From an uncultured Akkermansia sp. (GTDB lineage Bacteria > Verrucomicrobiota > Verrucomicrobiia > Verrucomicrobiales > Akkermansiaceae): a DNA stretch of 64,000 nucleotides. Every line of letters starts with the position of its first letter. The stretch's first letter is position 1. The DNA is taken from NCBI GenBank assembly GCA_947601655.1, contig CANQGG010000002.1, forward strand, positions 1-64,000, in the 5' to 3' direction. The notes beneath the pieces are model-generated. The model was not told where the DNA came from, did not search any database, and saw nothing but the letters and a program-made list of their open reading frames with translations. Made by a program: the position numbers and the translations under genes. Shown piece after piece: positions 15,370 through 37,986 of the stretch.

Positions 15370-15580
15370 AAAATAAAACCTCGTTGAAAAAGTTGAATTT
15401 TGCATCAAATTTACGTCAAATTCAACGCAAATTCGAAAGGGTGTTTTCGCTGAGATATAATATTCAATATATTACGATATACGAAATCATGCTGTAATTC
15501 TCTCGATGTATTACCTATGCCGCACCATGGCTCCATGTTTTACAACGGAGAGTGATGTTATGGACTAAGCGTGCCGAGTG
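15370..15580 (+). repeat. 211-bp direct repeat, copy A
   Basis: This copy matches 15653-15863 over 211 bp without gaps, with about a dozen substitutions (about 94% identity); the two are offset by 283 bp. Inside is an 11-bp phased CAAATT series (CAAATTTACGT, CAAATTCAACG, CAAATTCGAAA), which could bend DNA, then GAGATATAATATTC. Near the end is GGAGAGTGATGTTATG followed immediately by a stop codon. The order promoter-like box, leader, ribosome-binding site and ATG suggests a duplicated gene-upstream region, but no ORF follows. Confidence 0.9.
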
Positions 15581-15652
15581 AAGACAACGCGGATGTCGGC
15601 CTCGCGGCGATATAAAGACTGCACAACCCGACATGCCATCACTGCGGTCGCT

Positions 15653-15863
15653 AAAATAAAACCTCGTTGAAAAAGTCGAATTTTGCATCAAATTTACGTC
15701 AAATTCAACGCAAATTCGAAAGTGTGATTTCACTGAGATATAATATTCAATATCTTACGATATACGAAATCATGCTGTAATTCGCTTGATGTATTGCTTA
15801 TGCCGCACCATTGCCCCATGTTTTACAACGGAGAGTGATGTTATGGCCTAAGCGTGCCGAGTG
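15653..15863 (+). repeat. 211-bp direct repeat, copy B
   Basis: Second copy of the repeat at 15370-15580, starting AAAATAAAACCTCG and ending GTGCCGAGTG. Differences are scattered single-base changes, so the copies are not recent. A 72-bp unrelated sequence lies between the copies. Copy B ends about 100 bp from the stop codon of the GT8 gene. Whether the repeat also exists elsewhere in the genome cannot be told from this window. Confidence 0.9.
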
Positions 15864-15966
15864 GGGCTATCACGCATTCCTCACTCCGTCAATTCTTTTC
15901 CGTCTTATTCTTCAGTTTTTTTATCCTCCCGGATGGTAACGCCCTACTTCTTCTGCTGGAAAGCAG

Positions 15967-17058
15967 CTACTGTTTCGGTTGTGGCTGGCCGGTCAGAGCT
16001 GTTCCAAGGTCAATCAGCGACTTTCCAAAATTTGTTAGCCTGTTTGCCTGTTCGGAGATTTTCTTGTTCACCTCGCCTCGCAAAATGGCGCAGATGTTGG
16101 TATAGAGGATATGCTCATAGTAGAGAGTGCGCCGTGCCACGTCCCACCACTCGACCGCACCTTCATGATCCGGCTTTTGCCACGGCTTGGCCCCTCCTGC
16201 CCAATGGATGATCTTGCGGTTTTTCTTGTCCGCCAAAGCTTTCTTGCGGTACTTGAGCGGTAAGTGATCCGGATTGTACGACACTAACCCGTTCCACTCC
16301 GAATCGATGTAATAAATATGCTCCTGGCATACCATGTTAATGGCGCATTGGTCATGAAAGTGCATGGATGGGTTCTGTGCCGCCTGCAGCAGTTTTTCCT
16401 GTACCCCATGTTTACGCATCGCCCGCAGGTTGAGCAGCATCACCCCCGAATTGACGTAATTTTCCTTCGGCCGTTTGACTCCCAACACTTTGGTAAAATA
16501 GGGGCCCAGCTTGGGCTGCTTTTGCCGTCTTTCACGCTCCAAAATGCCGATGATGCCGTAATCCCAGCGGCACGCCGCAATCCAGTTGTCCCCTATGCTT
16601 GTGGCGTACAGTTTAGCTACATCATCGCGCACCAAAATATCGGCATCCAGCCAGAGGATCTTATCGTATTCCGGGAAAAGGCTTGGAGCAAAGAGGCGAT
16701 ACCAACATTCGGCAGAGAGAGGTTTATACCCCGGAGCGAAATCGTAATCAGCCATGCTGATGGGCATTTCCATGAACCTCAAATGAAAGCTTCCTGCAGA
16801 TTTACGTCCAAACTGGTCGACGATGCGTTCCAGCAACTCCCGGTTTCGTTTGCTTAAGTCGTGGTACAACACGATCAGTTCATATTCGTGCTTTCCCGCA
16901 CACTCCACCAAGCTAGCCAGAGCTACTCCCAAGTACGGCGCATACCAGTTGTTCACGGCAAAGAGTACCGCCACTTTTTTGCACTGAGAACTCACTTTTT
17001 GGAGAGACTTTCGTGCGACTCGAGTGCTTGGTGCTCCTTTTTCCTTTGTCTGTATCAT
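15967..17058 (-). CDS. GT8-family glycosyltransferase
   Basis: This 363-aa protein follows the retaining GT8 pattern: VAVLFAVNNWYAPYLGVALASL at the start of the nucleotide-binding fold, the DxD metal site in LWLDADILV, PEENY-like KENYVNSGVMLLNLRAMRK, and a C-terminal IIHWAGGAKPW where the His and Gly contact the donor. GT8 enzymes use UDP-Glc, UDP-Gal or related donors in LPS and capsule synthesis. A shared C-terminal phrase (HWAGG.KPW, WWDVARRTLYYEHIL) links it to the GT8 half of the 696-aa fusion upstream. It is separated by 84 bp from the phosphonate cassette and may have its own promoter. Confidence 0.88.
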   Translation of the reverse strand: MIQTKEKGAPSTRVARKSLQKVSSQCKKVAVLFAVNNWYAPYLGVALASLVECAGKHEYELIVLYHDLSKRNRELLERIVDQFGRKSAGSFHLRFMEMPISMADYDFAPGYKPLSAECWYRLFAPSLFPEYDKILWLDADILVRDDVAKLYATSIGDNWIAACRWDYGIIGILERERRQKQPKLGPYFTKVLGVKRPKENYVNSGVMLLNLRAMRKHGVQEKLLQAAQNPSMHFHDQCAINMVCQEHIYYIDSEWNGLVSYNPDHLPLKYRKKALADKKNRKIIHWAGGAKPWQKPDHEGAVEWWDVARRTLYYEHILYTNICAILRGEVNKKISEQANRLTNFGKSLIDLGTALTGQPQPKQ

Positions 17059-17142
17059 GTCCGTACGGGAGAAAATTAGGCGGCCCTTGAATCCTTATTC
17101 TTGTGAGAAGAATACTATTTATTTTCTGTTCATTACACTTTG

Positions 17143-18156
17143 TCAGACATCCAAAATACGAAGCAAGTCTGTGCGGGAAAGAGGACGAGGGTTGTTGGCG
17201 AGGCGCTGGAGGTTGACGGCATCGACGATGGCGGTGGCGGAGGTAATGCCGAGTGATTGCAGGTTGGTTTCCAAACCAATTTGCTGCAGAAGTTGCCGAA
17301 AGTGTTCCGGGAAGCCATCCGAAGCCACACCCAAGGCTGTGAGAAGTGGGCCGGGATCATCAAGGCAACACAAGTTCATGGGGAAAAGGTTGGTCATGCA
17401 GAGAGCTACGGCATGACCATGGGAGATGCCGTAATCAGAAGTGATTTTGTAGGAAAGAGCATGGGCGGCAGTAGTGCGCGAGATGTTGATGGCCATTCCG
17501 GCAAGATGCGCTGCAGTAAGCATTTTCTCGTTGGCGTCCGGGTCGTTACTGTTCACGGCTTGGACCAAACACTCACGGCAGAGATTAAGTGCCTTAAGGG
17601 AGTAGTCACGGCTTTCTTGCGTGGCTCGGCGTGCCCAGTAAGATTCAATCGCTTGACAATACGCATCCATGGCGCAGCAGGCTTTCAGGTGTCGAGGAGC
17701 ATTTTCGCAGAATTGGCTATCAAGGATCACACATTCAGGCAACAGACTCGGTTCGTCGATGGATTGCTTCACTCCGTCCTTGTAGATTACGGCAAATTGG
17801 GTGGCCTCACTCCCGGTACCGGCGGTGGTGGGGATGGCGATGAGCGGAGCGCTGCGCTTGCCGTAGTATCGGAAAGCTTTGGCGAAGTCAATCACACTGC
17901 CGCCTCCCCAAGCAATGATGTGGTCGTAGCCGTGCCCTTCTAATTCACCGCAAGCGTTCATCACACCTTCATACCGCGGGTTCGGTTCGATATGCGGGTA
18001 GAGTCTGACATTGACGTGTGGGTGCAAAGCATTCTCTACGGAGGGGAAGCGTTCCAGCATGTTCAAGGTGGCAAAGAGGAGTACATGCTCCCCTTCCTGC
18101 AATTCCTTACACAGCATTTCGATGCTTCCCCTCCCGTAGTATTTATGATTGGACAT
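17143..18156 (-). CDS. iron-containing alcohol dehydrogenase, probable phosphonoacetaldehyde reductase
   Basis: This 337-aa group III (iron-type) alcohol dehydrogenase has the NAD loop AWGGGSVIDFAKA, the signature IPTTAGTGSEATQFAV, and metal ligands in CAMDAYCQAIE, TAAHALSY and GISHGHAV. On sequence alone it could reduce several aldehydes. The context decides: it directly follows PepM and Ppd with a 14-bp overlap, the known order for phosphonoacetaldehyde reductases of the PhpC/FomC type, which make 2-hydroxyethylphosphonate. There is no aminotransferase beside it, so 2-aminoethylphosphonate is not the expected product. The reductase role is inference from genome context. Confidence 0.8.
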   Translation of the reverse strand: MSNHKYYGRGSIEMLCKELQEGEHVLLFATLNMLERFPSVENALHPHVNVRLYPHIEPNPRYEGVMNACGELEGHGYDHIIAWGGGSVIDFAKAFRYYGKRSAPLIAIPTTAGTGSEATQFAVIYKDGVKQSIDEPSLLPECVILDSQFCENAPRHLKACCAMDAYCQAIESYWARRATQESRDYSLKALNLCRECLVQAVNSNDPDANEKMLTAAHLAGMAINISRTTAAHALSYKITSDYGISHGHAVALCMTNLFPMNLCCLDDPGPLLTALGVASDGFPEHFRQLLQQIGLETNLQSLGITSATAIVDAVNLQRLANNPRPLSRTDLLRILDV

Positions 18157-19240
18157 ACTTCATGAAGGCTTGTTTGTTTTCCTGGGGACTCTCCTTGGGA
18201 CGTCCTAAATCCTTGCGTGCGCCGCGTCGCACACGGATTTCGAGCATTGCCGTTCCCTGCACTTGCATAAAATCTTGCCAAACTGCGCGGATGCCATCCA
18301 CGCTATCCACACGAAAAACTTCTTTGTAAGCGAGAGCGCGTGCAGCAGCAGGCAAGTCTACACCGCCCATCACCGTGGGCTGACCGCCCACGGAATCATG
18401 CGCGCCGTTGTTCAACACAATGTGGCGCAGGTTCGGCACGGCCTGCGCAGCCACCACCGGGAGTGCGCCCAAGTGCATGAGCACCGCACCATCGCCGTCC
18501 AGGCACACCACCTTCCTCTGCGGCTGGGCCAGTGCAATGCCCAAAGCAATGCTTGAGGCATGCCCCATGCTCCCCACCGTTAAAAAGTCCCGCTCATGCG
18601 TGCGGCGGTTTTCATACACCTCCCGCGAAATCATGCCGGTGGTGGACACCACGATATCGCGCTCACCGAGAAGCCCCAACACTTCGCGGATTGCCTCCTC
18701 GCGAGGAAGCGTCGACAACTCCTCGCGCGGAGGCAACTTCTGGGAGGGTTCGAAGGAGCCTTTGCGCACTACGAGGGCATAAGATTGCCCGTGGAGCATC
18801 ATGTATTCGCAAGCCTCACGCACCTGTTCCTTTCTCTCCAGCACACTGTGAGCAACCCCCATTGTCTTCAGCAGCGGCAGAGTGAGCCGCCCCTGCGTGA
18901 TGTGTTGCGGTTCATCGTGCACGCCGGGTTTGCCACGCCAGCCGATGATGAGCAGTGCCGGGATGCGGTATACAGCCTTATCCGTGAGAGAGAGCAGGGG
19001 ATTCACAATGTTTCCCAATCCGCTATTCTGCATATATACAACCCCCGGTCGCCCGGTAGCCAGGTAATGCCCGGTTGCCAGAGCGAGCGCATTCCCTTCA
19101 TTGGCGGCGATGATGTGCTGCTTGCTGTTCAGTCGCGTGGTGATGCAGCTGCAAAGCTCCTTAAGCAGGGAATCCGGCACTCCTGCGAAGAAGTCCAGTC
19201 CTGCATTCAGCAGGATGTCCAGAAAATCATTTGCTTTCAA
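18143..19240 (-). CDS. ppd: phosphonopyruvate decarboxylase
   Basis: This 365-aa ThDP enzyme pulls the unfavourable PepM reaction forward by decarboxylating phosphonopyruvate to phosphonoacetaldehyde. The N-terminal PYR domain has [13 protein letters not shown] and [19 protein letters not shown] with the catalytic Glu; the C-terminal PP domain has the GDG...N metal motif in [11 protein letters not shown] and [32 protein letters not shown] is typical of Ppd and sulfopyruvate decarboxylase. Association with PepM settles Ppd. It overlaps both neighbours by 14 bp, so the three genes are one transcript with coupled translation. Confidence 0.92.
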
Positions 19241-20555
19241 GCACGCGTCCTCCCGGTATCAGGTTAATGATTTCTTTGATGCTCATGCAGTACTCTTGCG
19301 ATGCTTCCTGCGCGCGGTGATGCGTGAGGATGCTTTGCGCCACTTTCACCATCGCCGGGTACGCTGCGCGTAAAAGCTGGTTGGCGTAAATCACCATGTT
19401 AATCCCCGCGGAGGCAAGCTCTTCCTCCGTCACTTGTGCGTAGCTCGTAGGTACAACGACGAGAGGTTTGCGGTTCGGCAGCTCTCTGTACCGTCGTGCA
19501 AACTCCTGCACTTCAGTAAACTCTTTGGAGCGCGAGTGGATCATGATGCCATCCGCACCGGCTTCCAAGTAGGCCTTTGCGCGATTCATCGCGTCTTCCA
19601 TCCCCTGTTCGAGAATGAGACTCTCAATGCGCGCGATGATCATGAAGTTCTGCGTCACTTGGTTGGCTTTGCCGGAGGCAATCTTGTGGCAGAAGTTTTC
19701 GATACTGTCCTGCTGCTGTTCCACCTCGTTGCCGAAGAGGGAGTTTTTCTTGAGCCCTATCTTATCCTCAATAATGACGGCTGATACTCCCAGTCGCTCC
19801 AGCTCCCGCACGGTGAAGACGAAATGTTCTGCCGGTCCTCCGCTATCTCCATCGTAGATGATGGGTTTCGTTGTTACGTCCAGAATCTCACTGAGCGCCT
19901 CGATGCGAGAGGAGGCATCCAGGAACCCGTTATCCGGCTTTGCCTTCGCCGTGGCTTGTGTGAGGGAGGATATCCATAGCGCATCAAATTCCTCCGTTTT
20001 CCCATCTTGCTTGACTTGAACCTGCTCCACAATCATCCCGCTCAGCCCATTGTGCGCCTCCATCACTCGAACGATATCCTTGCTGTTCAGTAACCTCAGC
20101 AACCGCCCCGCGCGGATCTCCGGCGTAGTGCCGATTTCTTTGAGCGTCTTATTCAGCTGAGTGGAGGATATTCCTTTCGTGTACGGTATATCGATGACCT
20201 GCCCGCCCCACTGTGACATCACTTCTACGATCCTCTGGCGCGTCTGTGCTTGTACTCCCGTCTTCCAATCATCGCCGTGCAGCACGAAGTCCGGTTTTTC
20301 ATGCAGCAGATTAGGCACATAGTCCAGCGTCTCCTGCGCCACCACGCGACTCACTCCCTTCACGGCCTCCACCACCACACGCCTCTGCTCGTAACTCATA
20401 TAGGGCAAGCGCTTGTAACTGGCTATCGCACGGTCCGTCAGCAGCCCCACGACGACTTCCCCACCATCACCTGCATATTGCCGCGCCTGTTTAATGATAT
20501 TCAAATGCCCCGGATGCAGCAAATCCGCGCTCATTCCTATGTATACTTTTACCAT
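19227..20555 (-). CDS. pepM: cytidylyltransferase-phosphoenolpyruvate mutase fusion
   Basis: This 442-aa fusion has two domains. Residues 1-140 form a TagD-like nucleotidyltransferase, with HPGH at 14-17, HGDDWKTG at 94-100 and the GISSTQLN loop at 128-135. Residues 150-440 form PEP mutase, with YDGDSGG at about 234-240 and the diagnostic [10 protein letters not shown] at 263-272, which fits the EDKxxxxxNS motif that separates PEP mutase from isocitrate-lyase relatives. PepM converts phosphoenolpyruvate to phosphonopyruvate. The N-terminal domain is expected to activate a phosphonate with CTP; TagD itself makes CDP-glycerol from glycerol-3-phosphate, and 2-hydroxyethylphosphonate is a short analogue. 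This fusion is known from other gut bacteria. Confidence in both domains is high; the activated substrate is inference. Confidence 0.93.
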
Positions 20556-20577
20556 ATTTATCTTTCTGCATGAATCG

Positions 20578-21957
20578 TTATAATGCTTCCAGGTACTTGA
20601 TAAACTTCTCTGTTATGTTCTCTCGTACAGGGAAAAATTTCTCTAATTTCTTTTTGTAAGCATCTTCCAGAATAAAATCATTCTCGACGTATTTGCGAAT
20701 GCACGCAATCGCCTCCTCCTTTTTGTAGAATACATTGAAGAGCTCCTTATCCAGCTCCTTCGAATGAGCCATATCTTTCCTATCATAACCCATCAGAGTT
20801 TTATCATCAAAATCGGGACGAAAGAATACGGTAGGGATACCAAGGAAAGAAAAGTCAAAAAATACAGATGAATAATCGGTTACAAGAAGGTCTGACGTTG
20901 CAATATAGGATGCAATATCGGTAGGATCAACAATCTCAACTCCATTACCACACAAATCTTGGTGGTCTGGGACAGTAACTGTTTGGTCTAATGAAGAATG
21001 ATGGAAACTATATAAGACTTTGAGTTGAAAATCTTTCATTAGATCGCAAAAATCTTTATCGTGCATGAAGCTCTTAATTCCAGTATAATACTTTGTCTTT
21101 GTAAGGGGCGTCTTAAATTTGGTCTTATTCCATGGTCCCAATGATGTACGCCATGTAAACATGATAAAAATGGTTTTTTCCTCATGTGGAATTCTCTTTA
21201 ATTGATCACACCTGCAACATCCGGTTATAGGGAGATTCTTCTTCTCCCATTGCCCATACTTCATGAATAGGTCAGCCTCTGCTTTATTCCAACACGCATA
21301 TCTATTATAAGTGGTGCGGCTGAAATATGGACCTATAAGAGGGAACACCTTGAAAAAAGTACATGCGTGTCCCACTTGATGAAAAGTGATGTATTTATTC
21401 TCAAAAAGGGCGCGATTAACTGAGCGGTTATATAACGCAAAGGAAATCAACAGAACTTTGGTTCGAAATAAGTGAGGGAAAACTTTGAACCAAAACTCGA
21501 AATTCCTGCCGCTGTTATGTCGAACACTGTATTTTATTGTTATGATGTTTTTTAAGTTGGTCGATTCCTTAATCTTGTTATAAGCTAAATTCTCTTTCCA
21601 AATAACGTAATATGAACGAATGCCTCTCTTTTGCATTTCTTCAAATATACAGTACGCATCTACACAACCTGCATGTTTTTCATACAAATTATCTAACAAA
21701 ATATACGTATCCTTCTTGAAGAATGGCTGGAGAATTTTTAAGATGATTTTAGATATTTGGAAGAAGGATATTTGAAAGAAAAATTTTTGGAAAAATGTTT
21801 TCCTCCAGTACAAAATTCCCAACAACATTGCAATAATAGCCAGGACAATCCATGGAATAAGAGGAATAAAATATCCGAGCAGGAGAGCCTCAAGGGGTCC
21901 GTCCGATAAGTTCAGGTCAATACCTGCGGTCAGTACTTTGAATTGGTTCATCATCAT
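20578..21957 (-). CDS. CDP-glycerol glycerophosphotransferase-family (TagF/TagB-like) transferase
   Basis: This is a 459-aa protein with one N-terminal membrane helix ([21 protein letters not shown]) and a cytoplasmic GT-B-like domain. The family signature is clear: [11 protein letters not shown] in the place of the WHG.P.KK loop, a [10 protein letters not shown] strand, and [20 protein letters not shown], the conserved phosphate-binding segment. Known members transfer glycerol- or ribitol-phosphate from a CDP-alditol to a wall polymer. Next to a cytidylyltransferase-PepM fusion, the likely donor is a CMP-phosphonate, which would put hydroxyethylphosphonate on the glycan. That donor is inference. 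The gene is visibly more AT-rich than its neighbours, a sign of separate origin. Confidence 0.82.
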
Positions 21958-21958
21958 A

Positions 21959-24049
21959 TTATTTGTTTTTTAAAAAGGATGTAATCAAACTGATCTTGGA
22001 CGTAAGTTCATCTTTACGTCTGGAATAACGCTGTTTTCGTTTGCCCCACGAAAAGAAAAGTCGCAAACGTGTCATCATCAATCTTCTTCGATATTTATGA
22101 AGTAGAAAAGCCTCGCGAATGATAGACAGACTGGAAAACATGTGTTTCTTTGTTTCAGCAATAATGTGGTTGACTAGTTCACGGTTGTCAATTTTCCCCC
22201 TTTGTTGCTCTATAATCTGTAAGTAGTCTCGGCTCATCGCCTTGATATTAATAGGAGCGTTAATAGCCTTCATTAGAGTTTTTTCAATGCACGCCACGGT
22301 ATTGATATTTAAAATCTTTTCATATACAGGCGTTTGTCTGGCATATTTCCACCAAATATCAGCTAGTTCCACCCCCGGATTATTCCATGGTTTCGAAACA
22401 GTGCCGCGATAAGAAAGAATTTTGGCGTCTTGCCTGGTATTTTTCCAATCCCAGTACTCATTTGCGGGAAGATAATTGCTATCAATCCATTGAGGGCAAA
22501 CATTCCATGTTGCCTCAAGAATCTTCACGTGACCATAACAAAGCTTATTGAGTGCATCTGATAGAGGTTTTTTAAACTCTTCCTCTTCTATTAGTTGGAG
22601 TCCTCTTGCCTCTTGTCGGGCTTCACGCATTGCGCGTACATTCCAAAGGACAACATCATCGTTAATATATTCATTGTAAGGATTATTGATGCCTATGTGT
22701 TCTGTATAGTATTCAATCTGCTCACGACCGCTATTGAGACGGGCTGCGAGAAGATTATCGCGGCAAGCTCCGATCCAGTGGCTACCTAAATCGGTGTTAA
22801 ATAGATTGGACACATCAGCTTGAGCAATCGTATCATGCCCAAGGTAAAGCACTTTGTCGTAATTTTTAAAAACCTCCGGACAACAAAGTGGTAAAATGCT
22901 CATTATGGAATACCCTTGAGGGAGAAGGAAGTTTCGTCTCTCAACAAGCCGATTGACTCGATAGAATCGAATAGAGACATTGGGATACCCTTTGTTAATT
23001 TTTTGAATCTCTTCCTGCCGAGCTTTGCTCAATTTATCATACAAAACCACGAAATCATAATTCAACTCAGCCGTTGCATGTGTGAGAACGGATTGAATCA
23101 TTACCTCAACCATGTAGGAATTTGTGTTATCTGCTGAACAGCATATAGCTACATTATTGATGTCTGATAGAGGAAAAAGAGTATGCGGTATTTCCGTATC
23201 TTCAATATGCATCATTGTCAGCTGCTTGATCTTAAGCCCCTCCTTAATCATCTGAGTTATAAAGACACCTGTGATAAGTTCTGCTAAGTAAGCAGGATAA
23301 CGCTGATCGGCGGGGCAGAAATTTGATCTTTTAATTTTTCCGTTAACAAAGTTCAGAATGTCAAAAATAAATTGAGCATATCTGAAAAAAATTTCTTTTC
23401 TGGCAATAAACATGTTCCATTGGAAACACTTACTTCCGGAAAAATATTTTACGGCTGTTTCATAAAAATCCGGATATTTTATCTGAATGTAATCCAATGC
23501 TTCTTTTTCGCCGATATTTCTGGGATGTTGCTCCTTAACTTTACATTTTTCTGGAGGGTTTTTGGACCATATGTAACGACCTTCCGAAACTTTAAATTTG
23601 AACACTGGCAAACATTTCGGAACATACATGTCGTATTCGCCTAAATGTAGTTCGTCAATTTTTAATAACTTTGAATATTCTTCTTTTGTAAGGAAAGGTT
23701 TAAAAATACGAGGATCTCCCTGTTCCTGTTCAGGAAAAGCCATAATACGCCTGTAGTGCATAAATCCCACATAATCAGGATTGCCGAGTTGATCATAATT
23801 CTTCCATGCCCAAAAATGTCCGGTAAGTTCGCAAAAAATATTATTATATTCCGAAATATTTTCCCCTGTGTTGTCCCCAATGCAGTTTTCTAGTAGCCAG
23901 TTATAAGATGAATGATCCGTAAAGCCATCTTTGTGCGGGGCATTTTTCATACCGCGTCCAAGATGGATAGGAATTAAGTTTTCGTTTCGGAAGATAACAG
24001 CTGGTTTGTGATAACCGATCAATATTTTAATTGTGGGCGTTGTTTTCAT
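21959..24049 (-). CDS. DUF4422-GT8 two-domain glycosyltransferase
   Basis: This is a 696-aa fusion. Residues 1-275 are DUF4422 (DNTGENIS, FWAWKNY, PDYVGFMHYRR). Residues 300-600 are GT8 (NNVAICCSADNTNSYMVEVMIQSVL, then IGINNPYNEYINDDVVLWNVRAMR, then ILSYRGTVSKPWNNPG). The metal-binding DxD, which is LDAD in the other GT8 of this locus, reads LGHD here, so the first Asp is Gly. Either the enzyme binds metal differently or the GT8 half is inactive. The remaining 90 residues are basic and helical. Only 1 bp separates it from the TagF-like gene, and it shares that gene's AT-rich composition. Both halves probably add sugars to the same polysaccharide. Confidence 0.85.
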   Translation of the reverse strand: MKTTPTIKILIGYHKPAVIFRNENLIPIHLGRGMKNAPHKDGFTDHSSYNWLLENCIGDNTGENISEYNNIFCELTGHFWAWKNYDQLGNPDYVGFMHYRRIMAFPEQEQGDPRIFKPFLTKEEYSKLLKIDELHLGEYDMYVPKCLPVFKFKVSEGRYIWSKNPPEKCKVKEQHPRNIGEKEALDYIQIKYPDFYETAVKYFSGSKCFQWNMFIARKEIFFRYAQFIFDILNFVNGKIKRSNFCPADQRYPAYLAELITGVFITQMIKEGLKIKQLTMMHIEDTEIPHTLFPLSDINNVAICCSADNTNSYMVEVMIQSVLTHATAELNYDFVVLYDKLSKARQEEIQKINKGYPNVSIRFYRVNRLVERRNFLLPQGYSIMSILPLCCPEVFKNYDKVLYLGHDTIAQADVSNLFNTDLGSHWIGACRDNLLAARLNSGREQIEYYTEHIGINNPYNEYINDDVVLWNVRAMREARQEARGLQLIEEEEFKKPLSDALNKLCYGHVKILEATWNVCPQWIDSNYLPANEYWDWKNTRQDAKILSYRGTVSKPWNNPGVELADIWWKYARQTPVYEKILNINTVACIEKTLMKAINAPINIKAMSRDYLQIIEQQRGKIDNRELVNHIIAETKKHMFSSLSIIREAFLLHKYRRRLMMTRLRLFFSWGKRKQRYSRRKDELTSKISLITSFLKNK

Positions 24050-24057
24050 AATGAAAT

Positions 24058-25197
24058 TTATATCGAACAGATTCCTAAAAACCCCCTCAGCGCTTCCTCC
24101 ACCGTCTGAGCCATATTAAGGTAGCAGTAGGAGGCGAGGCGGCCGAGGAAGTGAGTATTGGGGAGGGAGGAGGCGAGTTGTTGATAACGGTTATAGAGGG
24201 CGGCGTTTTCCGGAGAGGGGATGGGGTAGTAGGGTTCGTTCTTGCCCGGAGAGTAGGCACAGGGGTATTCGCGCGAAATGGTGGTGTGCGGCGTTTCCTC
24301 GTCCAGGTAGTACTTGTACTCCACACTGCGCGTGTAATCGTAGTTGCAGGGGAAGTTGATCTGCGGACCGGATTGCGTAAACTCCCGCGGCAGGTTGCGG
24401 AATTGAAGATCCAAGCTGCGGTACGGGAGCGCCCCGAACTCGTAGTCAAAAAACTCATCGATCGGTCCCGTGAAGAAAAGCCGGTCGTAGGAAATTTTCC
24501 CTTTCACATCCGACCAATTCGTGTTGAGACGCACTTCTATGAGCGGGTGATCCAGCATCCGCCGCGCCATGGCGGTGTAGCCCTCGGCGGGAATCGCCTG
24601 GTAGGTGTCTCGGAAATAGCGATTGTCCCGCCCGACACGTACCGGTACGCGCCCGCTCACGGAGGCGTCTAATTGCTCCGCCGTCAGTCCCCACTGCTTC
24701 ATCGTGTACCCGGCAAACACCTTCTCGTAGATGAAATCCGCCAGCAGGTGCAAGTCCTCATCCTTGGTCTCGCGCAACTTGAGGATGGGCACATCCGTGT
24801 TGAATCCGAAGGAAGCGATCAGCTTCTCCTCGATGCGGGTCGCCATCGTGCGCGGGAAGAGCGTATGCAGCGAATCCAGGTTGAAGGGCACCGGCACCTC
24901 CGTGCCGTCCACCACCGCCTTCACTCGGTACATGAAAGGATGCCACTCGGTGAAACGGCTCAGGTAATCCCACACCTCCTTGCTGTTGGTGTGGAACACG
25001 TGAGGTCCGTACTTATGAACTGTCACCCCAGTTTCGGGATCCTTTTCATCGTAGATATTGCCGCCGATGTGGGCGCGTTTGTCGATGATGAGCACGGGCT
25101 CCTCGAGCTGGGAGGCGATGCGCTCCGCCACGACCATGCCGGACAGACCGCAGCCTACCACCAGGTTCTTTACGTGTTCCGATTGGGATGTGCTCAT
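24058..25197 (-). CDS. glf: UDP-galactopyranose mutase
   Basis: This 379-aa flavoprotein is predicted to interconvert UDP-galactopyranose and UDP-galactofuranose. The FAD-binding start VVGCGLSGMVVAERIA is followed by the hallmark GGNIYDEKDPETGVTVHKYGPHVFHTN; the His and Phe there line the active site. Later marks are YTMKQWG, a FTGPIDEFFDYEFG strand, YKYYLDEETPHTT, YPCAYSPGKNEPYYP and NTHFLGRLASYCYLNM. Its presence shows that the surface glycan contains galactofuranose. It is well matched to the family length. The deleted galE gene directly upstream would have supplied UDP-galactose, so another epimerase is probably encoded elsewhere. Confidence 0.95.
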   Translation of the reverse strand: MSTSQSEHVKNLVVGCGLSGMVVAERIASQLEEPVLIIDKRAHIGGNIYDEKDPETGVTVHKYGPHVFHTNSKEVWDYLSRFTEWHPFMYRVKAVVDGTEVPVPFNLDSLHTLFPRTMATRIEEKLIASFGFNTDVPILKLRETKDEDLHLLADFIYEKVFAGYTMKQWGLTAEQLDASVSGRVPVRVGRDNRYFRDTYQAIPAEGYTAMARRMLDHPLIEVRLNTNWSDVKGKISYDRLFFTGPIDEFFDYEFGALPYRSLDLQFRNLPREFTQSGPQINFPCNYDYTRSVEYKYYLDEETPHTTISREYPCAYSPGKNEPYYPIPSPENAALYNRYQQLASSLPNTHFLGRLASYCYLNMAQTVEEALRGFLGICSI

Positions 25198-25233
25198 CGT
25201 CAGATGTTAAAAGCGCCGGTGCTGCTCCCACTG

Positions 25234-25440
25234 CTAGGCAGTGGAGAGGATGGAACGGATATCGGTATGGTGCGGCTGCCAGCCGAGGATGGAGCGCGCA
25301 GCGGCATTGTTGGCAAAGAGCCGTGCAGGATCTCCGGGGCGGTGCTCCGCAATTTCATGAGGCAGGACTTGCCGCACCGTGTGCGAGCCGATGTAGCCCG
25401 CCCCTCCCATCACGAGGATTTGTTTTGTTTCGGTATTCAT
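25234..25440 (-). pseudogene. galE remnant with large in-frame internal deletion
   Basis: The 68-codon frame joins the N-terminus of UDP-glucose 4-epimerase (ILVMGGAGYIGSHTVRQVL, the NAD-binding glycine motif) directly to its C-terminus (EIAEHRPGDPARLF, then SILGWQPHHTD). About 260 codons in between are missing, including the YxxxK catalytic pair, and the usual C-terminal Trp-rich end is also cut. The reading frame is intact, so a short protein may be made, but it cannot be an epimerase. The ATG overlaps the ugd stop by 4 bp, so it is still embedded in the operon. Confidence 0.85.
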
Positions 25441-26696
25441 GACTTTGCGAGGAAACGGCAGTCGATAACACGAGAGGGTTCAAGCATGAGCTTTTTGATG
25501 GCGCTCATGTCGGCTTCCGCGAACTCCGGCCACTCCGTGAGGATTGCCAGCACGTGCGCCCCCTGTGCGGCGCTCTCCTTGTCCGGCGCGTAGGTGATGG
25601 AGTCGCCCAACAGCTTGCGAGCGTTATCCATCGCCTTGGGGTCGTAGGCGGTCACCGTGACGCCTGCGCGTTTGATGAGGTGCTGCACAATGCCGATGGC
25701 GGGACTCTCCCGGCAGTCATCCGTGCCGTTCTTGAAGGCTAATCCCCAGACGGCGATGCGCGGGTGAGGGATGTCTTTGACGGCATCCAGGATCTTGTGC
25801 GCCATCAACTCGCGGCGTTTGGCATTGCCCGAGATGGTGGAACGAATAAGGGAAAGCTCCACCCCATGCTTATGAGCCATGTGCAACAGGGCTTTCGTGT
25901 CTTTCGGGAAGCAGGAGCCGCCGTAACCTGGTCCGGGGCGCAGGAATGCCAATCCGATGCGGGTGTCTTCACCCATGCCGCGCGCCACCTCATGAATATC
26001 CGCTTGCACCGCTTCGCAGAAGTCGGACATCTCGTTGATGTAGTGGATTTTCATGGCGAGGAAGGCGTTGGAAGCGTACTTGATCGCCTCCGAGGAGCGA
26101 CGGGAGACAAAGAGCATCTTCGGTGAAGGCTCCATGGGCGCGTACAGCTCGCGGATGAGGGAGCGAGCCTCTTTGCTCTGCGTGCCCACCACGATGCGGT
26201 TCGGGTGGAAGAAATCGTGCACGGCATAGCCCTCTCTCAGAAACTCAGGCAACGAGATCACTTCCGCCTGCGCGGCAGGGTTGGTCTCGCGAATAAGCGC
26301 CCCCACCCGGTCCCCCGTCCCCACCGGCACGGTGGATTTGACTGCCACGACCACAGGATCTTTAAGGCATTGAGCCAGCTGCTTCACTGCCGCGAACAGG
26401 TAGGTCAGGTTAGCTTCGCCTGTGTCGGGATTTTCCGGAGTCCCTACGGCGACCATGACGATCTGCGCCCCCTTTACTCCCTGAGCCACGTCCTCGGTGA
26501 ACGTGAGGCGACCGGACTCCAGCCCGGATTTCAGAAGCTCCTCAAGTCCCTCTTCAAAAAGCGTCACCTGACCGGCGCGAAGTTTCTCCACCTTTTCGCG
26601 GTCGCAATCGATGCAGGTGACATCGTGTCCGAGCTTCGCGAGCCCCGCTCCCGTGGGAAGCCCCACATACCCTGTTCCTATAATAGCAATCCTCAT
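25437..26696 (-). CDS. ugd: UDP-glucose 6-dehydrogenase
   Basis: This 419-aa enzyme makes UDP-glucuronate from UDP-glucose by two NAD-dependent oxidations. Marks in order are the NAD motif [64 protein letters not shown], and the catalytic cysteine in [34 protein letters not shown] opens the C-terminal domain. The PEFLREG.A..D...P.R segment supports UDP-glucose over UDP-ManNAc as substrate. It overlaps UXS on one side and the galE remnant on the other by 4 bp each, so these are co-translated. UDP-GlcA then feeds the UXS enzyme encoded just upstream. Confidence 0.95.
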
Positions 26697-27646
26697 GCTT
26701 TGTTGATTTGTGTTTTGAAGTATTGAATTGTGGCGTCCAGCCCCCGTGCTAACGGCACTTGTGGACTCCAGTGCAGTGCGCTTTTCGCCAGACTGATATC
26801 CGGTCTCCTCTGCGTGGGGTCATCCGACGGCAGCTCGCAATGCACGAGCTTCGAGCTGCCTCCTACCTTTGCCAGTACGATGTCCGCCAGTTCGCGTATG
26901 GTGAACTCCCCGGGGTTGCCCAGATTCACCGGACCCGTAAAGGAGGCATCCTCTACCGCCATCATACGTACCATACCCTCGATGAGGTCGTCCACATAGC
27001 AAAAGGAGCGCGTCTGGCTTCCATCGCCGTAGATGGTGATGTCCTCTCCCCGCAACGCCTGACAGATGAAATTGGAGACCACACGACCGTCCTTCGGGTC
27101 CATCTTCGGACCGTAGGTGTTGAAAATACGGATAACGCGAATGGAAACGCCCTCGTGGCGGTGGTAGTCGAAGAAGAGGCTCTCGGTGCAACGCTTGCCC
27201 TCATCGTAGCAGGAACGGATGCCGATGGGGTTCACGTTTCCGCGGTAGGTTTCCCTCTGGGGGTGCTCCAACGGTTCGCCGTACACCTCTGAGGTACTGG
27301 CTTGCAGGATGCGCGCCCCGTGCGCCTTCGCTAACTCCAGCATGTTGAGAGCGCCCAACACGCAGGTACGCGTGGTGTCGATAGAATGCCTCCCCTGATA
27401 CGCCGGCGGTGAGGCGGGGCAGGCGAGATTGTAGATCTCATCTACGTGCTCACCCGGGTCGAAAGGATTGCATACGTCGTGTTCCACGAAGCGGAAGTTC
27501 GCACTTCCCTGCAATTCCGCGATATTCTCCATGCGCCCGGTGTAGTTGTTGTCCAGACAGATCATGCGCCGTCCCTCGCGCAGCAGGCGCGCGCAGAGAT
27601 TGGAGCCGAGGAAGCCCGTCCCACCTGTGATAAGCGTTGTCATCAT
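26693..27646 (-). CDS. UDP-glucuronate decarboxylase (UDP-xylose synthase)
   Basis: Started at ATG 27646 (317 aa): a GGAGGGGAGG lies about 11 nt upstream and the NAD-binding [15 protein letters not shown] follows at once. The track's 60-residue extension is Pro/Arg/Ser-rich and not part of the family. SDR marks are [15 protein letters not shown], the catalytic [29 protein letters not shown] with the YxxxK pair, and [30 protein letters not shown] is diagnostic of UXS enzymes, which decarboxylate UDP-GlcA to UDP-xylose. With ugd directly downstream, UDP-Glc to UDP-GlcA to UDP-Xyl is encoded back to back. Confidence 0.93.
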
Positions 27647-27722
27647 AAAATCATTTTCCTCCCCTCCTTCTTCATAAGACTGAACGTTCCTCACTGACCC
27701 AGGGGAAGAGGTACGGAGAAAG

Positions 27723-28535
27723 CTACCTCTCCAGGGCACCAGTGAGTTTCCTGACGTGGTAGATCCCCCGCTCCCACGAGTCGGAAACCAGGGACTTCTC
27801 GGGGACGATGCTCTCTGCGGTCCCATTGTCCGGGATGATGTACCATCCTCTCTTTGCGGGGTCCGGAAAGGCTATGTACAGGTTCTTCTGTTTCCGCACG
27901 GCTTCCCTTTCAACGGCAGGGCGTCCCTTGATTTGCAGCAACATGACCCTTCCCCGATAATCCAACCGCGATGAATCGAGACAGGCTATCACGTCGGCGC
28001 ACCACGCATCATTTGTCACGCGTTGGCATTCGAATCCATAATCCGCCAGCAGGGACATCAGCTTCTGAACGTTGTAGGCTTCCTTCCCTTTATCGCTCAG
28101 ATCATTGTAGTAAACCGGCTCCGGACCGCCGACCCACGCCGGGACCGTTTCTCCCTCGGCGGAGCTTTCCCCTGCCATCGGCGGATCGCCCTGCGGCTCC
28201 TTCATGAGGGAGAAGACGATATCCGTGTCGCTCTGCGTCACGGCCGAGAAGATTTCCCCCTTTCTGTGATCCGTGTAGAGCGAGTATTTCTCCGATGTTG
28301 AGCCCTTATCGAGAACGTTGACAGCATGCTCGTGAAAGGCTTTCTCAAGCTCCGCCGCCGGAGCCGAGAAGATGCGCTTGTCTCCGTTGATGGCACACAC
28401 AAACCAGAACCTCGCGTGGTTCCTGGCAGCCTCGTTCAGCTTTTTCGTCCGTATGTTCATCCAGCAGCGCTCTTCGTTCGCCAGGCATGGCTTGGCGGCA
28501 TAGACGGCATATCGGTATGGCAATTTAACCTTCAC
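27723..28535 (-). CDS. unknown protein with a possible PD-(D/E)XK-like C-terminal domain
   Basis: This 270-aa protein is not recognised as a whole. The C-terminal half reads [20 protein letters not shown], then [14 protein letters not shown], then [21 protein letters not shown]. An acidic residue before a strand followed by Q-x-K on the next strand is the layout of PD-(D/E)XK nuclease-fold proteins, so a nuclease-like domain is plausible. The N-terminal half ([16 protein letters not shown]) could be a second copy of a similar strand pattern. No signal peptide or membrane segment is seen. The GTG start at 28535 is uncertain; ATG 28460 is an alternative. It lies between the GT2 and UXS genes, an odd place for a nuclease. 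Confidence 0.5.
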
Positions 28536-28599: not shown

Positions 28600-29637
28600 T
28601 TATCGCAGGATTCCTCTTGTCATTAAGCACCACAATCGCCACATCGGCCCGAATCGCATTACTTCGGCGAGAGGCAATTGCATCAGGCGCAACTGACCGC
28701 GCCACGTCCTCGTGCGGTAAAAGACTCTGCGAAGCGCCCATTGAATCGACCTTTCCGTGCAGGCCTTCTCGTACCCCGCAGCTTCCAGTCGTGCAATGGC
28801 ATGCTTTACCGCGGTCAGCAAACGCTCTCCTTCCTCGAGTACCTCCTTGCCGTGCAGAAACGAAACGAGCGCTCGGGCTTCTTCTTCATCCACTTTGAAT
28901 TGTTGGGTCAGTGACTTTGTCTGTATCCGGCAGGCTATTTCCTCCTGTTCTTCTCTCCTCGGGAGGAACTTCTTTTTGCGGTACCTCACCAGAACCTCAT
29001 CCATCTTTCCAAACTCCGTCCTGCCCAGGAGGTCCAGCCACATCTTGTAGTCTTCCGCAGGAAAACAATTTGTAAAGCTTATGCCCTCCCGACGAAGAAC
29101 CTCCCGGCGCACCATCACCGAGGAAGTGCAGTATACGTTGCCCACGAGCAGCAGATCGCATTCAATCTGTTCGGAGCAATTTCCCTCCCGAAGACGCTCT
29201 GTTCGCCGGGGATGCTCCGCATCTCCTACCCGCGTGCCAACCAGACCGATGCCCGGGTGACTTTCCATGTACTCTACCTGCTTCTCCAATCTTTCCGGCA
29301 GGGAAATGTCATCCGAATCCATGAAGGCAATATATTGCCCGCGCGCTATCTTCAATCCCTCATTGCGCGCTATGGCCGCCTTCATGTTCTTTTCCAACCG
29401 CAGGTGCACGATCCGCGCATCTTTGTACTCGCTGAGCTGACGCTGAGTGGCCTCATCCGAACCGTCGTCAATGATGATGAGTTCAAAATCACTAAGCGTT
29501 TGCTCCAGGATGCTTCCTATGGCCGTATCGAGCCATTCCTGCCGCGTGTTGTGCACAGGCATGATCACAGATACCTTTGGCACTTCTCGCGCTCTGCTCT
29601 GGGCATCCGCGAGATCTGGCGATTTTTGCTGAAGCAT
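28600..29637 (-). CDS. GT2-family glycosyltransferase
   Basis: This 345-aa protein has an N-terminal GT-A domain of inverting family 2: VSVIMPVHNTRQEWLDTAIGS, ELIIIDDGSDEATQ, an AAIARNEGLKIARGQYIAFMDSDD segment with the DxD-type metal site, and FPAEDYKMWL with the ED-type catalytic region. The C-terminal part is basic and helical with no clear membrane segment, so it likely acts at the inner face of the membrane on a lipid-linked acceptor. It is the first gene of the minus-strand polysaccharide operon, directly downstream of the candidate invertible promoter. The donor sugar is not predictable. Confidence 0.9.
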   Translation of the reverse strand: MLQQKSPDLADAQSRAREVPKVSVIMPVHNTRQEWLDTAIGSILEQTLSDFELIIIDDGSDEATQRQLSEYKDARIVHLRLEKNMKAAIARNEGLKIARGQYIAFMDSDDISLPERLEKQVEYMESHPGIGLVGTRVGDAEHPRRTERLREGNCSEQIECDLLLVGNVYCTSSVMVRREVLRREGISFTNCFPAEDYKMWLDLLGRTEFGKMDEVLVRYRKKKFLPRREEQEEIACRIQTKSLTQQFKVDEEEARALVSFLHGKEVLEEGERLLTAVKHAIARLEAAGYEKACTERSIQWALRRVFYRTRTWRGQLRLMQLPLAEVMRFGPMWRLWCLMTRGILR

Positions 29638-29664
29638 ATACCGGAAACACCAACGCCGGTAGTG

Positions 29665-29855
29665 TATCTCTTTCCTAATGCGATGCGCTGTATGGATTTT
29701 AATTACTACTTATCAATCAATAAATTATATGAATAGCTCCTTCACGATTCCAACAACCGCGCCTTTTCCTTTTGTCTTTTTCAAAATTCCCAAATTCCGC
29801 GTAGCTATGTGACTTTTTTTGTTTTTGGACTGTACATCGCATTAGGAAAGAGATA
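29665..29855. promoter_or_regulatory. candidate invertible promoter segment (perfect 21-bp inverted repeats)
   Basis: TATCTCTTTCCTAATGCGATG at 29665-29685 is repeated as its exact reverse complement at 29835-29855. The arms enclose 149 bp of AT-rich DNA holding a good minus-strand promoter aimed at the polysaccharide operon. Short perfect repeats around a promoter upstream of a capsule-type operon is the layout of phase-variable invertible promoters in Bacteroides. In this orientation the operon would be on; after inversion the promoter would face the nanA operon. Recombination itself is not shown by the sequence. Confidence 0.7.
29724..29753 (-). promoter_or_regulatory. putative promoter of the polysaccharide operon
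   Basis: On the minus strand TTGGAA, an 18-nt spacer and a perfect TATAAT lie inside the inverted-repeat segment. The GT2 start codon is about 87 nt downstream, with one repeat arm in the leader. Confidence 0.55.
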
Positions 29856-30007
29856 TACACCGTGAAAAACGATGCAATTATTTTAGTATAACATAGTTGA
29901 GAAAATATCACCTGAAGAGAGGTCATGAAGCACGGGTGAGAGGAGGGGTGCAGGATGTTCAGGAAGGGGAGCGCTCATCCAAAAAATGGAAGGCAGCAAG
30001 AATTAAC

Positions 30008-30072: not shown

Positions 30073-30996
30073 ATGCAAACCTCACTGAAACTTCACGGTC
30101 TCGTAGCAGCTACGCATACACCGATGCGTGCCGATGGAACTTGCAACCCGGACATCGTTGATGCGCAGGCAGCCTTTCTCGCTTCGCAGGGTATAAAGCT
30201 TACCTTCATCACCGGATCCACAGGCGAATCTGCGCACATGCAGCTTACGGAGCGCAAAGAGAACATGGCGGCATGGGGGGAAGCCGCGAAGAAGCATGGA
30301 TTGCAGTTCATTGTGCACACCGGCGGCAACAGCGTGTACGACGGGCGCGAGCTGGCAGATTATGCTGTGAAGTGCGGTGCGGCGGGGACCGCGAGCAACT
30401 CTCCCTGTTATTTCAAGCCCGGGAGCATTGATTCACTGGTGGACTGTCTTGCTTTCGAGGCGTCCGGCGCTCCGGAGCTTCCGTATTACTTTTACGACAT
30501 TCCCGCGCTCACGCACGTGGCGTTCAATCCGTGCAAGGTTATTGCTGCCTGTGCGGCAAAGATTCCCAATTTCTGCGGTGTGAAGTTTACCAACCCGGAT
30601 CTTGCTCTCTATATGGAGGCGCTTAACTACGACGGGGGTGAATACGATATTCCCTGGGGGGTGGATGAGTGGTTTCTCGCCGCGCTGGCAACGGGAGCGA
30701 AGGGCGGGGTGGGTTCTTCTTTCAACTATGCTCCGAAGCTCTACCAGGATCTCATTGCCGCTTTCAATGAAGGAGACATCGAAAGAGCGCGCCACTTGCA
30801 GAAATTGTCCGTGCAGATGATTAACATTATCGCCGCGAAGGGCTATATGGGCTGCTGCAAGGTTATCATGGGCTGGTGGGGCGTGGATTTGGGGCCGGCG
30901 CGCTTGCCGATGGGAACCCCGGATGCCGCTACGGTGGCGCAACTCAAGGATGAGCTGAAGGCCATCGGCTTCTTCGACTGGGCAATCAACAAGTAA
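30073..30996 (+). CDS. nanA: N-acetylneuraminate lyase (DHDPS/NAL family)
   Basis: This 307-aa TIM-barrel aldolase is predicted to split N-acetylneuraminate into N-acetylmannosamine and pyruvate. Marks are FITGSTGESAHMQLTERKE (the GSTGE carboxylate loop), PYYFYDIPALTHV with the conserved Tyr, and FCGVKFTNPDL with the Schiff-base Lys. DIPALT matches the YYIPALT motif of lyases and not the YNVPGRT of dihydrodipicolinate synthase, and the AGE-family epimerase downstream agrees. An aspartate replaces the usual His/Tyr in the YYYHIPALT string. It is the first gene of a five-gene operon that runs to 35423. Confidence 0.9.
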   Translation: MQTSLKLHGLVAATHTPMRADGTCNPDIVDAQAAFLASQGIKLTFITGSTGESAHMQLTERKENMAAWGEAAKKHGLQFIVHTGGNSVYDGRELADYAVKCGAAGTASNSPCYFKPGSIDSLVDCLAFEASGAPELPYYFYDIPALTHVAFNPCKVIAACAAKIPNFCGVKFTNPDLALYMEALNYDGGEYDIPWGVDEWFLAALATGAKGGVGSSFNYAPKLYQDLIAAFNEGDIERARHLQKLSVQMINIIAAKGYMGCCKVIMGWWGVDLGPARLPMGTPDAATVAQLKDELKAIGFFDWAINK

Positions 30997-35560: not shown

Positions 35561-36508
35561 TCAGTTGTTATCTGACTTCCGGCGCGAGGCGACGCCCGCA
35601 CGCGGATGAGCGCTGCGATACACTGCTTTCATGCGAGATTTGGTTACATGCGTGTAAATCTGCGTGGTAGAAAGGGAGGCATGTCCAAGCAATTCCTGCA
35701 CGGCACGAAGATCCGCCCCGGCATCCAGCAGGTGTGTGGCAAAGGTGTGGCGCAGTTTATGCGGGGAAATGTGGACAGGAATATTTGAATAGCGTAGATA
35801 TTTCTCCAGCATCAACTGGATCGCGCGGCCCGTCATGCGGCGCTTCAGCCGACTGATGAAAAGCGGAGAAACGCCGCTCACACCGGACATTTCACAGTAT
35901 CGGCGGATTGCACTGCGGGCGTAATCTCCCACCGGTACGAGGCGCACCTTTCGTCCCTTACCCACCACGCGCAGACACTCCTCACCATCCTGCAGCGCAT
36001 TAGCATTTAAGCTCACAAGCTCGCTAAGGCGAACGCCGCAGGAGTAAAAAAGTTCCAGGATGGCAGCATCGCGATACGGCAGCCAGGCCGGGCACTTCTT
36101 ATCCAATGGCACACGCAGGGGGATAGAGAGCAGCTCATTCATCTGCTGCAAATTCAAATGCACCGGCAAGGGGTGACGAGCCTTCGGCAGAGATACCCCT
36201 GCCAGAGGACTTACGGGCACCTCTCCGAATCGCACAAGGTAGTTGTAAAACGACCTTAAGGCGGCAAAGCGCAGGCGGATTGTGGAGGATTTCAACTGCT
36301 CCTCCATCGCCTCGTAGAGCCACCCACGGAAGTGTTCTGTGGCACACTCAGTCCACCCGGGGAAGCGCTTGCCCATCCATTCGCGGAACTGACGCAGTGA
36401 GCGCTCATAGGCGGATAAAGTGAGGCGGGAGGCGCTTCGCTCTGCCATCATATAGCGGATGAAATGCGCTACCACAGGGTCTTCCGCCGCTTTTTCCCAA
36501 ACAGTCAT
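35561..36508 (-). CDS. tyrosine recombinase, XerC/XerD family
   Basis: From ATG 36508 (315 aa); the track's longer form would overlap rho. An N-terminal SAM-like DNA-binding domain (VVAHFIRYMMAERSASRLTLSAYERSLRQF) precedes the catalytic domain. The catalytic set is complete: Arg in CGVRLSEL, Lys in VGKGRKVR, HxxR in SPHKLRHTFATHLL, His in LLGHASLSTTQIYTHV and the nucleophilic Tyr in QIYTHV. Length and motifs fit XerC/XerD, the chromosome dimer resolvases, but eye inspection cannot separate them from related integrases. It is located downstream of rho, typical of a housekeeping gene, yet it is also the only recombinase near the 29.7-kb inverted repeats. Confidence 0.88.
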   Translation of the reverse strand: MTVWEKAAEDPVVAHFIRYMMAERSASRLTLSAYERSLRQFREWMGKRFPGWTECATEHFRGWLYEAMEEQLKSSTIRLRFAALRSFYNYLVRFGEVPVSPLAGVSLPKARHPLPVHLNLQQMNELLSIPLRVPLDKKCPAWLPYRDAAILELFYSCGVRLSELVSLNANALQDGEECLRVVGKGRKVRLVPVGDYARSAIRRYCEMSGVSGVSPLFISRLKRRMTGRAIQLMLEKYLRYSNIPVHISPHKLRHTFATHLLDAGADLRAVQELLGHASLSTTQIYTHVTKSRMKAVYRSAHPRAGVASRRKSDNN

Positions 36509-36543
36509 GAGCAGAGGGACGAACGGGAGGGACGTGCAATAAT

Positions 36544-37986
36544 TCAGCGCGCCTTGAGGTTGATAAGCATCTGAGCGTTGTTTGGGCAACGCTTCATCAG
36601 GGAGAGCAGCCTCTCCATAGCTTCCGGGGGCTTATGCCCCGCAAGGGCGCGACGAATCAGGTGGATTTTTTCGAGCATCCACTGCGGCAAAATCAGCTCT
36701 TCACGACGTGTGCCGCTCTTCAGGATATCCACCGCGGGGTAGATATACATCTCCGCAATGCGACGGTTGAGCACGAGCTCCATATTGCCCGTTCCTTTGA
36801 ATTCCTGGAAAATGAGCTCATCCATACGGCTGTTTGTTTCAATGAGAGCCGTGGCGAGGATGGTAAGAGAACCGGCCTGACGCGTATTGCGTGCCGCGGC
36901 AAAGAGGCGGCGCGGCATCTCGAGCGCACGAGCGTCAATACCGCCGGACATCGTGCGCCCGCTACCTTTCTCTGCATTGTTGTAAGCGCGTGCGAGGCGG
37001 GTGATGGAGTCCATGACGATAAGTACATGGCGCCCTGCTTCTACGAGCCGCTTGGCGCGAGTGACGCACATTTCCGCCATACGACAGTGCTCATATACGC
37101 CGCCGTCGTTGCTGGAGGCATAGATTTCCGCACCCGGCAAGGCCCTGCGAAACTCTGTCACTTCTTCCGGACGCTCATCCACCAGCAGCACAAGCAGCGT
37201 AATCTCATCTTTATACTTTTCCAATATCGCCTCAGAAATGTGCATCAGGAGGGTTGTTTTCCCTGTGCGCGGCGGCGCTACGATGAGCCCACGCTGACCA
37301 CGCGCCACAGGCGATACCACATCAAGCGTGCGGGTTGTGTAGCGTTCGGGCGTCGTTTCAAAACTGATACGTTCGGTCGGATTGACCGCCTTGAGATCAT
37401 CGAAATGAGGGTTGCGCGCCGCGTCCTCCGGGAGCTGTCCGTTTACCTCCGTCACAGAGATAAGCTGGTGCCCGCGCTCGTATTTCTGGGCCATGCCCCG
37501 CACCTGGACGAAAGGACGAAGGTGGTAGCGCGAGATGAGATCCGCCGGCACATAGACCGCCCCTGTGGAGGGGGCCCAATTGTTGTCGGGTACGCGGATA
37601 AAGCCAAAGCCTTTGCTGGTGAGCTCCAACAACCCTACGAGCTCTCTGGGCTCGCCGACGGGGACATAGGCCCGAGAGGAGGCGTTTTCCTCGGGGGGGA
37701 TGGGACGAGCGGGCCTGGCACTGCCACGCGGAGAAGGGGAACTCTGCCGATGTTGAAAAACACGCTGGTGGCGCGGAGAATTTCCCTGACGTCGGGGGCG
37801 GGGACCGCGGAAATGAGTGTTTCTACGGTCAGATCTCTCTGCCCGGAAGGGTTTGCGAATTTCTCCCTCATCCATGATCTGAATACGGGCAGACTGCGGC
37901 GAATCATCACCGGACTGTGCAGGATCCTCGCTGTTCATCATATCTGCACAAGGCTTTGTTTTCTCAGGTAAAAACACAGAGGGCAT
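36544..37986 (-). CDS. rho: transcription termination factor Rho
   Basis: This 480-aa hexameric RNA helicase ends transcription. An Arg/Ser/Pro-rich, probably disordered segment (about residues 20-110) is inserted before the RNA-binding OB domain ([19 protein letters not shown] and [15 protein letters not shown]). The ATPase core has Walker [13 protein letters not shown] and the Walker B region [39 protein letters not shown] and SGTRREELI are conserved. The stretch after [10 protein letters not shown] reads [15 protein letters not shown] where most Rho have EVVASTFDEPASRHV, a visible divergence. The ATG overlaps the yebC stop by one base. Confidence 0.97.

Follow-up and report, generated by a model that had tools for sequence, protein, structure and literature searches.

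A candidate inverton upstream of a polysaccharide operon in an uncultured Akkermansia and its proposed split promoter

Is the short segment in front of a surface polysaccharide operon in this Akkermansia genome (G000) an invertible switch, and if so, what would its inversion change and which enzyme would carry it out? The segment lies in a stretch of 64,000 nucleotides that was analysed at its full length and is called the window here. Our preferred reading, which we hold to be fairly probable, is that 29665–29855 is an inverton whose inversion joins two promoter halves and so switches the minus-strand polysaccharide operon, with a dedicated tyrosine recombinase acting on it, the best candidate for which is encoded at G000:C2:96531–97649.

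The repeat and the genes on either side

A repeat search of the window found a perfect 21-bp inverted repeat at 29665–29685 and 29835–29855 with 149 nt between the arms, just upstream of the GT2-led operon, which confirmed what a sequence-only reading of this DNA had described. The arms could be extended to 29662–29685 and 29835–29858 (24 nt, 96% identity). By our own estimate, the chance of a perfect 21-mer pair so close together in 64 kb is about a few in a million. The switch segment is small, ∼190 bases in total, and intergenic; with short inverted repeats on both sides and a gene downstream of it, it has the layout of an inverton. The features considered below are the following (G073 is the nearest relative).

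14018–28535, minus strand: remainder of the presumed operon, with epimerase, UDP-sugar dehydrogenase, UDP-galactopyranose mutase, DUF4422/GT8 proteins, glycerophosphotransferase, PEP mutase-cytidylyltransferase, TPP enzyme and Fe-ADH
28600–29637, minus strand: GT2 glycosyltransferase (Pfam PF00535), first gene of the presumed switched operon
29661–29666, minus strand: -10-like half of the proposed promoter on the GT2 side, outside the segment, TACACT (TATACT in 7/8 G073 homologues); after inversion it would be 17 bp from the -35-like half
29665–29685, plus strand: left recombination site, TATCTCTTT-CCT-AATGCGATG, in which a 3-nt centre separates two imperfect half-sites (from the repeat search, genome-wide arm matches and centre analysis)
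29686–29834, no strand: putatively invertible interior of 149 bp, with homologous copies at C1:142655, C4:67630, C6:31056 and C19:2 (88–97% identity, sequence comparison)
29715–29727, plus strand: perfect match to the IHF consensus, AATCAATAAATTA, retained in the G000 and G073 copies of the window cassette
29724–29753, minus strand: TTGGAA-18-TATAAT of the sequence-only reading, not conserved in G073
29813–29827, plus strand: T-rich run directly upstream of the -35-like half; other invertons have an A/T run at the equivalent place
29831–29836, plus strand: -35-like half of the proposed promoter at the right end, inside the segment, TGTACA, 4/6 (TGGACA, 5/6, in G073 homologues)
29835–29855, minus strand: right recombination site, an inverted copy identical to the left one including the centre triplet CCT (same basis)
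29854–29859, plus strand: -10-like TATACA on the nanA side, 17 bp from TGTACA in the assembled orientation, both 4/6
30073–30996, plus strand: DHDPS-family (nanA-like) gene on the far side of the switch
35561–36589, minus strand: XerC-like housekeeping recombinase

The ATG of the GT2 gene lies ∼28 bp from the left arm, and the best relatives of the protein were found in rabbit-gut Akkermansia MAGs. Within the presumed switched operon, the PEP mutase-cytidylyltransferase, TPP enzyme and Fe-ADH genes stand together at 17143–20555 of the window, which suggests that the surface polysaccharide has a phosphonate decoration.

About 300 bp of the window cassette is repeated on contigs C1, C4, C6 and C19 of G000 with 88–97% identity, and C29 carries one further end of it. 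Wherever the contig covers that side, the GT2 start of the G000 copies is always on the same side. The sequence-only reading had named nanA as the target of the flipped state. This did not agree with the homologous copies, which keep GT2 whereas their other neighbour varies (e.g. a topoisomerase or an unknown protein). Because the side opposite GT2 differs among the cassette copies, the nanA-like gene is probably a neighbour or bystander and not a partner of the switch, although the weak -10-like TATACA does face it. The IHF site was also considered as a general inverton part and was rejected, with matches in 3/52 inverton interiors compared with 1.1 in shuffles.

A family of paired sites and their orientations

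The window arm had 23 genome-wide matches with at most three mismatches, and the control had none. With the paired-site pattern ATCTCTTT-NNN-AA..TT-NNN-AAAGAGAT, 14 strict pairs and at least 18 relaxed pairs were found in G000. Among 76 Akkermansia genomes, such pairs were nearly limited to a single subclade (G000 and G063–G074), with 2–23 each; G026, G048 and G056 had 1–2 each, and the remaining genomes, including the A. muciniphila-type ones, had none. The reversed pattern, which served as the control, gave 0 pairs in every one of the 76 genomes.

The centre triplets of the two arms were identical in 77/78 pairs of 184–190 bp. When only non-homologous pairs were counted as independent, the triplet was identical within 52/52, compared with 14% between pairs, and the best of 10,000 within-genome shuffles reached 32 matches. 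Matched centres are what strand exchange between both arms of one inverton would enforce, and they separate the invertons of a genome from one another.

Segment lengths fell into the narrow classes of 146–147, 157–160, 174–177 and 184–190 bp with empty gaps between them. Helical quantisation was rejected as the reason, because the steps are not 10.5 bp and some lengths come from three-site arrays. Such arrays (∼176 + 146 bp) were seen at L281, L283, L284, L305, L307, L310 and L339, where the middle site is palindromic and could recombine with the site on either side of it.

Oppositely oriented homologous copies were also observed. The sequence-only reading had advised looking for the flipped orientation in relatives, and it was found in G073, which has eight copies of the window cassette, the one on C20 being inverted compared with the other seven. 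This flipped copy precedes a truncated GT2 gene, and the idea that one locus is ON in G073 was rejected accordingly, as no single active capsule locus is shown by it. Further homologous invertons lay in opposite orientation with both flanks in agreement, namely L271/L273 in one genome and L288/L293 and L302/L327 between genomes; the comparison of interiors and flanks over all pairs gave more that were supported by one flank. Invertons upstream of recombinase genes also appeared flipped in homologous pairs. All G000 copies of the window cassette share one orientation. Because homologous copies occur in opposite orientation, including one of the eight window cassettes of G073, the segment very likely inverts; inversion of the window copy itself we infer from these relatives. 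The proposal of an invertible phase switch before the polysaccharide operon was in this way supported by many paired sites, matched centres and oppositely oriented homologues.

Promoter halves at the segment ends

According to the preferred reading, a dedicated tyrosine recombinase would recombine both 21-bp sites and so invert the segment. The -35-like hexamer and the preceding A/T run, which is conserved and would be UP-element-like, lie just inside the right end, and the -10-like hexamer lies outside, by the left site before GT2. As assembled, the halves are separated, and GT2 would be OFF. Inversion would join them to TGTACA-17-TACACT and turn GT2 ON, with the recombination site as the 17-bp spacer of the assembled promoter. 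The identical centre triplet of each pair would let every inverton recombine with itself and not with other sites of the genome. That the joined halves work as a promoter, and that this state is the ON state, are predictions from the positions of the hexamers.

Fifty-two non-homologous invertons were read outward across the site in a register scan, in which the predicted register is that of a 17-bp spacer. At this register, a -35-like hexamer (5/6 or 6/6 to TTGACA) was present at one inner end in 23/52, compared with 0–6 at other registers, and a -10-like hexamer (5/6 to TATAAT) on one outer flank in 27/52, compared with 0–2. The G073 copies of the window cassette had TGGACA inside, with TATACT outside in 7/8 of them, and the internal TATAAT and TTGGAA were gone. 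In most assemblies the halves were at opposite ends (OFF to ON, 43 to 4). Therefore most loci, the window included, would be OFF in the assemblies on the split-promoter reading. The sequence-only reading had GT2 ON, with the promoter now pointing at it; on the split-promoter reading, the assembled orientation would be the OFF one.

To our knowledge, a whole promoter inside the segment is the rule among known invertons, and this counts for a classical invertible promoter, in which TTGGAA-18-TATAAT drives GT2 now and would drive nanA when flipped. The element is indeed present (minus strand, 29753–29724), its hexamers match at 10/12 positions, and the TATAAT region is retained in other G000 copies. 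As a promoter it was not supported: it is absent from the eight G073 cassette homologues, the genes opposite GT2 vary among the cassette copies, and 1.6 sites of this type are expected by chance in 2.5 kb, which makes one such site weak evidence alone. Internal promoters were found in 8 and 10 of 35 by direction, compared with 8.9 ± 2.5 in shuffles. A complete promoter inside the segment is neither conserved nor enriched, and the halves flank the site, so the classical form is unlikely here. Very unlikely, in our judgement, is an either/or split promoter, with nanA driven in the present orientation and GT2 driven after inversion. TGTACA-17-TATACA does face nanA as assembled, and the G000 invertons L052 and L053, both between divergent genes, have TATACT on both sides; but both window hexamers match at only 4/6, the pair would be a weak promoter at best, the nanA start is 218 bp away, and unrelated genes occupy the nanA side of the homologous copies.

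The bases resembling TTGACA and TATACT might instead be recombinase contacts in true recombination sites, with the promoter elsewhere. Extended half-sites do have bases in common, and most of them share a C at the fourth base past the core GAT, so that TGNNCA, already a 3/6 match to TTGACA, comes with the site itself; the -10 flank is also often mirrored at the inner end that does not carry the -35-like hexamer. Such contacts may account for part of the hexamer conservation. As a full explanation it appears highly improbable, in view of the full TTGACA in 8/52 invertons, which displaces the shared C, the restriction of the -35-like hexamer to one end, and the association of -10-like flanks with an outward-reading gene (43/66 flanks vs 7/33). 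A static, non-inverting repeat left by transposition or acting as a terminator is barely credible: the right arm does overlap a terminator-like site, but there are dozens of centre-matched pairs and oppositely oriented homologues, and each of three contigs has an end that coincides with an arm or lies no more than three bases from one. Against the split promoter itself count the weak hexamers of the window (4/6 and 4/6), the lopsided OFF to ON ratio of 43 to 4, and the weak -10 half in the CGGATT invertons of other Akkermansia.

Beyond the -10-like flanks of G000 lie polysaccharide genes, autotransporters, a glycerophosphotransferase and a VipA/VipB type VI locus. At the last (L276:927–3197, contig C9), the type VI secretion genes are preceded by a ATCTCTTT-type inverton, whose flank towards them carries TACACT; L330 is a G073 homologue of this inverton. 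The inverton of L053 (L053:2–10727, contig C25) lies between two divergent autotransporters and is possibly an either/or switch; L052 has a similar layout between two APH-domain genes.

If the split-promoter reading holds, the inner end that adjoins the -10 flank tells the state of an Akkermansia inverton, and this can reverse a whole-promoter reading, as it does here. ON and OFF could then be predicted from assemblies and read sets of any kind, the published A. muciniphila long reads among them, and there would be a possible explanation for one recombinase serving many sites without scrambling the chromosome. The reading would further suggest a common type of switch for the polysaccharide operons, autotransporters and a type VI secretion locus of a single gut commensal. 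Evenly balanced, in our estimation, is the broader proposition that dozens of Akkermansia surface loci are under promoter-assembling switches with centre triplets as addresses, and that parallel networks in one cell are run by paralogous tyrosine recombinases that each have a separate site type and in many cases an inverton as well.

Recombinases and comparison with known systems

The Xer-type protein of the window had been regarded as the only recombinase in view. Its gene is present at 35561–36589, but the protein scores as XerC, and 12 other tyrosine recombinases are encoded in the genome. It and a XerD-like protein on C8 are housekeeping proteins, and XerC is not a likely inverter. Xer/dif recombination involves XerC and XerD at one dif site in chromosome resolution, whereas the sites here are many and in inverted pairs. 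The 12 others form a paralogous, inverton-associated family. For at least five of them, and for further members in relatives, an inverted repeat lies directly upstream, each with a sequence type of its own. The loci L073–L086 and L137–L216 show such paralogues with upstream invertons and subfamily-specific half-sites, e.g. TACGAATT, CGTATT, CGGATT, ATATGATT and TACAGCATT.

Among the paralogue loci examined, none adjoined ATCTCTTT sites, and assignment of the cognate enzyme by adjacency was rejected. The group-1 paralogues L083 and L085 were set aside, as they are missing in G067 and G070. The single-copy L073 group (G000:C2:96531–97649) was the only paralogue group in all clade genomes searched (67–88% identity). 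Its orthologues (≥67% identity) occurred in 14 genomes, of which 14/14 had site pairs, compared with 2/62 of the other genomes (Fisher p ∼2e-13, a statistic that ignores shared descent, which could give the same pattern within one clade). The catalytic residues R, K, R, H and Y of this PF00589 protein are present and invariant in a 12-row alignment; at the first position of the usual HxxR motif, all 12 aligned tyrosine recombinases have D. By co-distribution, the L073 recombinase is the best candidate inverter and would act in trans.

Invertons are already known in Akkermansia. Phase-variable capsule by inversion is established in A. muciniphila, where the orientation of the cps1 inverton was linked to capsule experimentally and the inverton motif is CGGATT..AATCCG (PMC13343947); the motif of Jiang et al. 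2019 was confirmed in PMC11892184, which also refers to a promoter motif that Jiang et al. gave for Akkermansia. These invertons resemble the present one in genus, in short inverted repeats before capsule genes, in the order half-site, 3-nt centre, half-site, and in a one-sided inner -35-like hexamer by the site, which is weak in the window (TGTACA, 4/6). They differ in the site itself, CGGATT-NNN-AATCCG compared with TATCTCTTT-CCT-AATGCGATG, by which the window does not belong to the CGGATT group. A split promoter is not described in PMC13343947 or PMC11892184. No description of the ATCTCTTT site family or of a split promoter in invertible elements was found in the literature searched, and in view of the Akkermansia promoter motif of Jiang et al. 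the novelty of the split promoter is provisional. Of the 20 independent CGGATT invertons taken from seven further Akkermansia genomes, 14 had a -35-like hexamer one base inside the site, and the -10 side was weaker. In G005, an A. muciniphila-type genome, L356 and L382 were considered as the cps1 inverton and rejected, since L356 lies beside autotransporter/PEP-CTERM-like genes and L382 beside a recombinase. L382 (G005:C1:2436888–2437045) is a CGGATT inverton before a recombinase of the same family and adjoins a tandem-repeat, CRISPR-like array.

The capsule promoters of Bacteroides fragilis lie whole within segments that are inverted by the serine recombinase Mpi. That system is similar in its many invertons per genome before surface polysaccharide loci and in one recombinase presumed for many sites, but the candidates in Akkermansia are tyrosine recombinases, and the three resolvase-domain proteins of G000, two of them large, were found only on contig C14. 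The fimS element of E. coli also combines tyrosine recombinases, FimB and FimE, with a short invertible element before surface genes; unlike the Akkermansia switch, it is a single element that contains its whole promoter and has its recombinase genes next to it. In minicircles of the IS911/IS2 type, junction promoters form when recombination unites -35 and -10 across the recombined end. The joining of the two hexamers by recombination is what the proposed switch would share with these junctions, which belong to a transposition intermediate and not to a reversible inversion.
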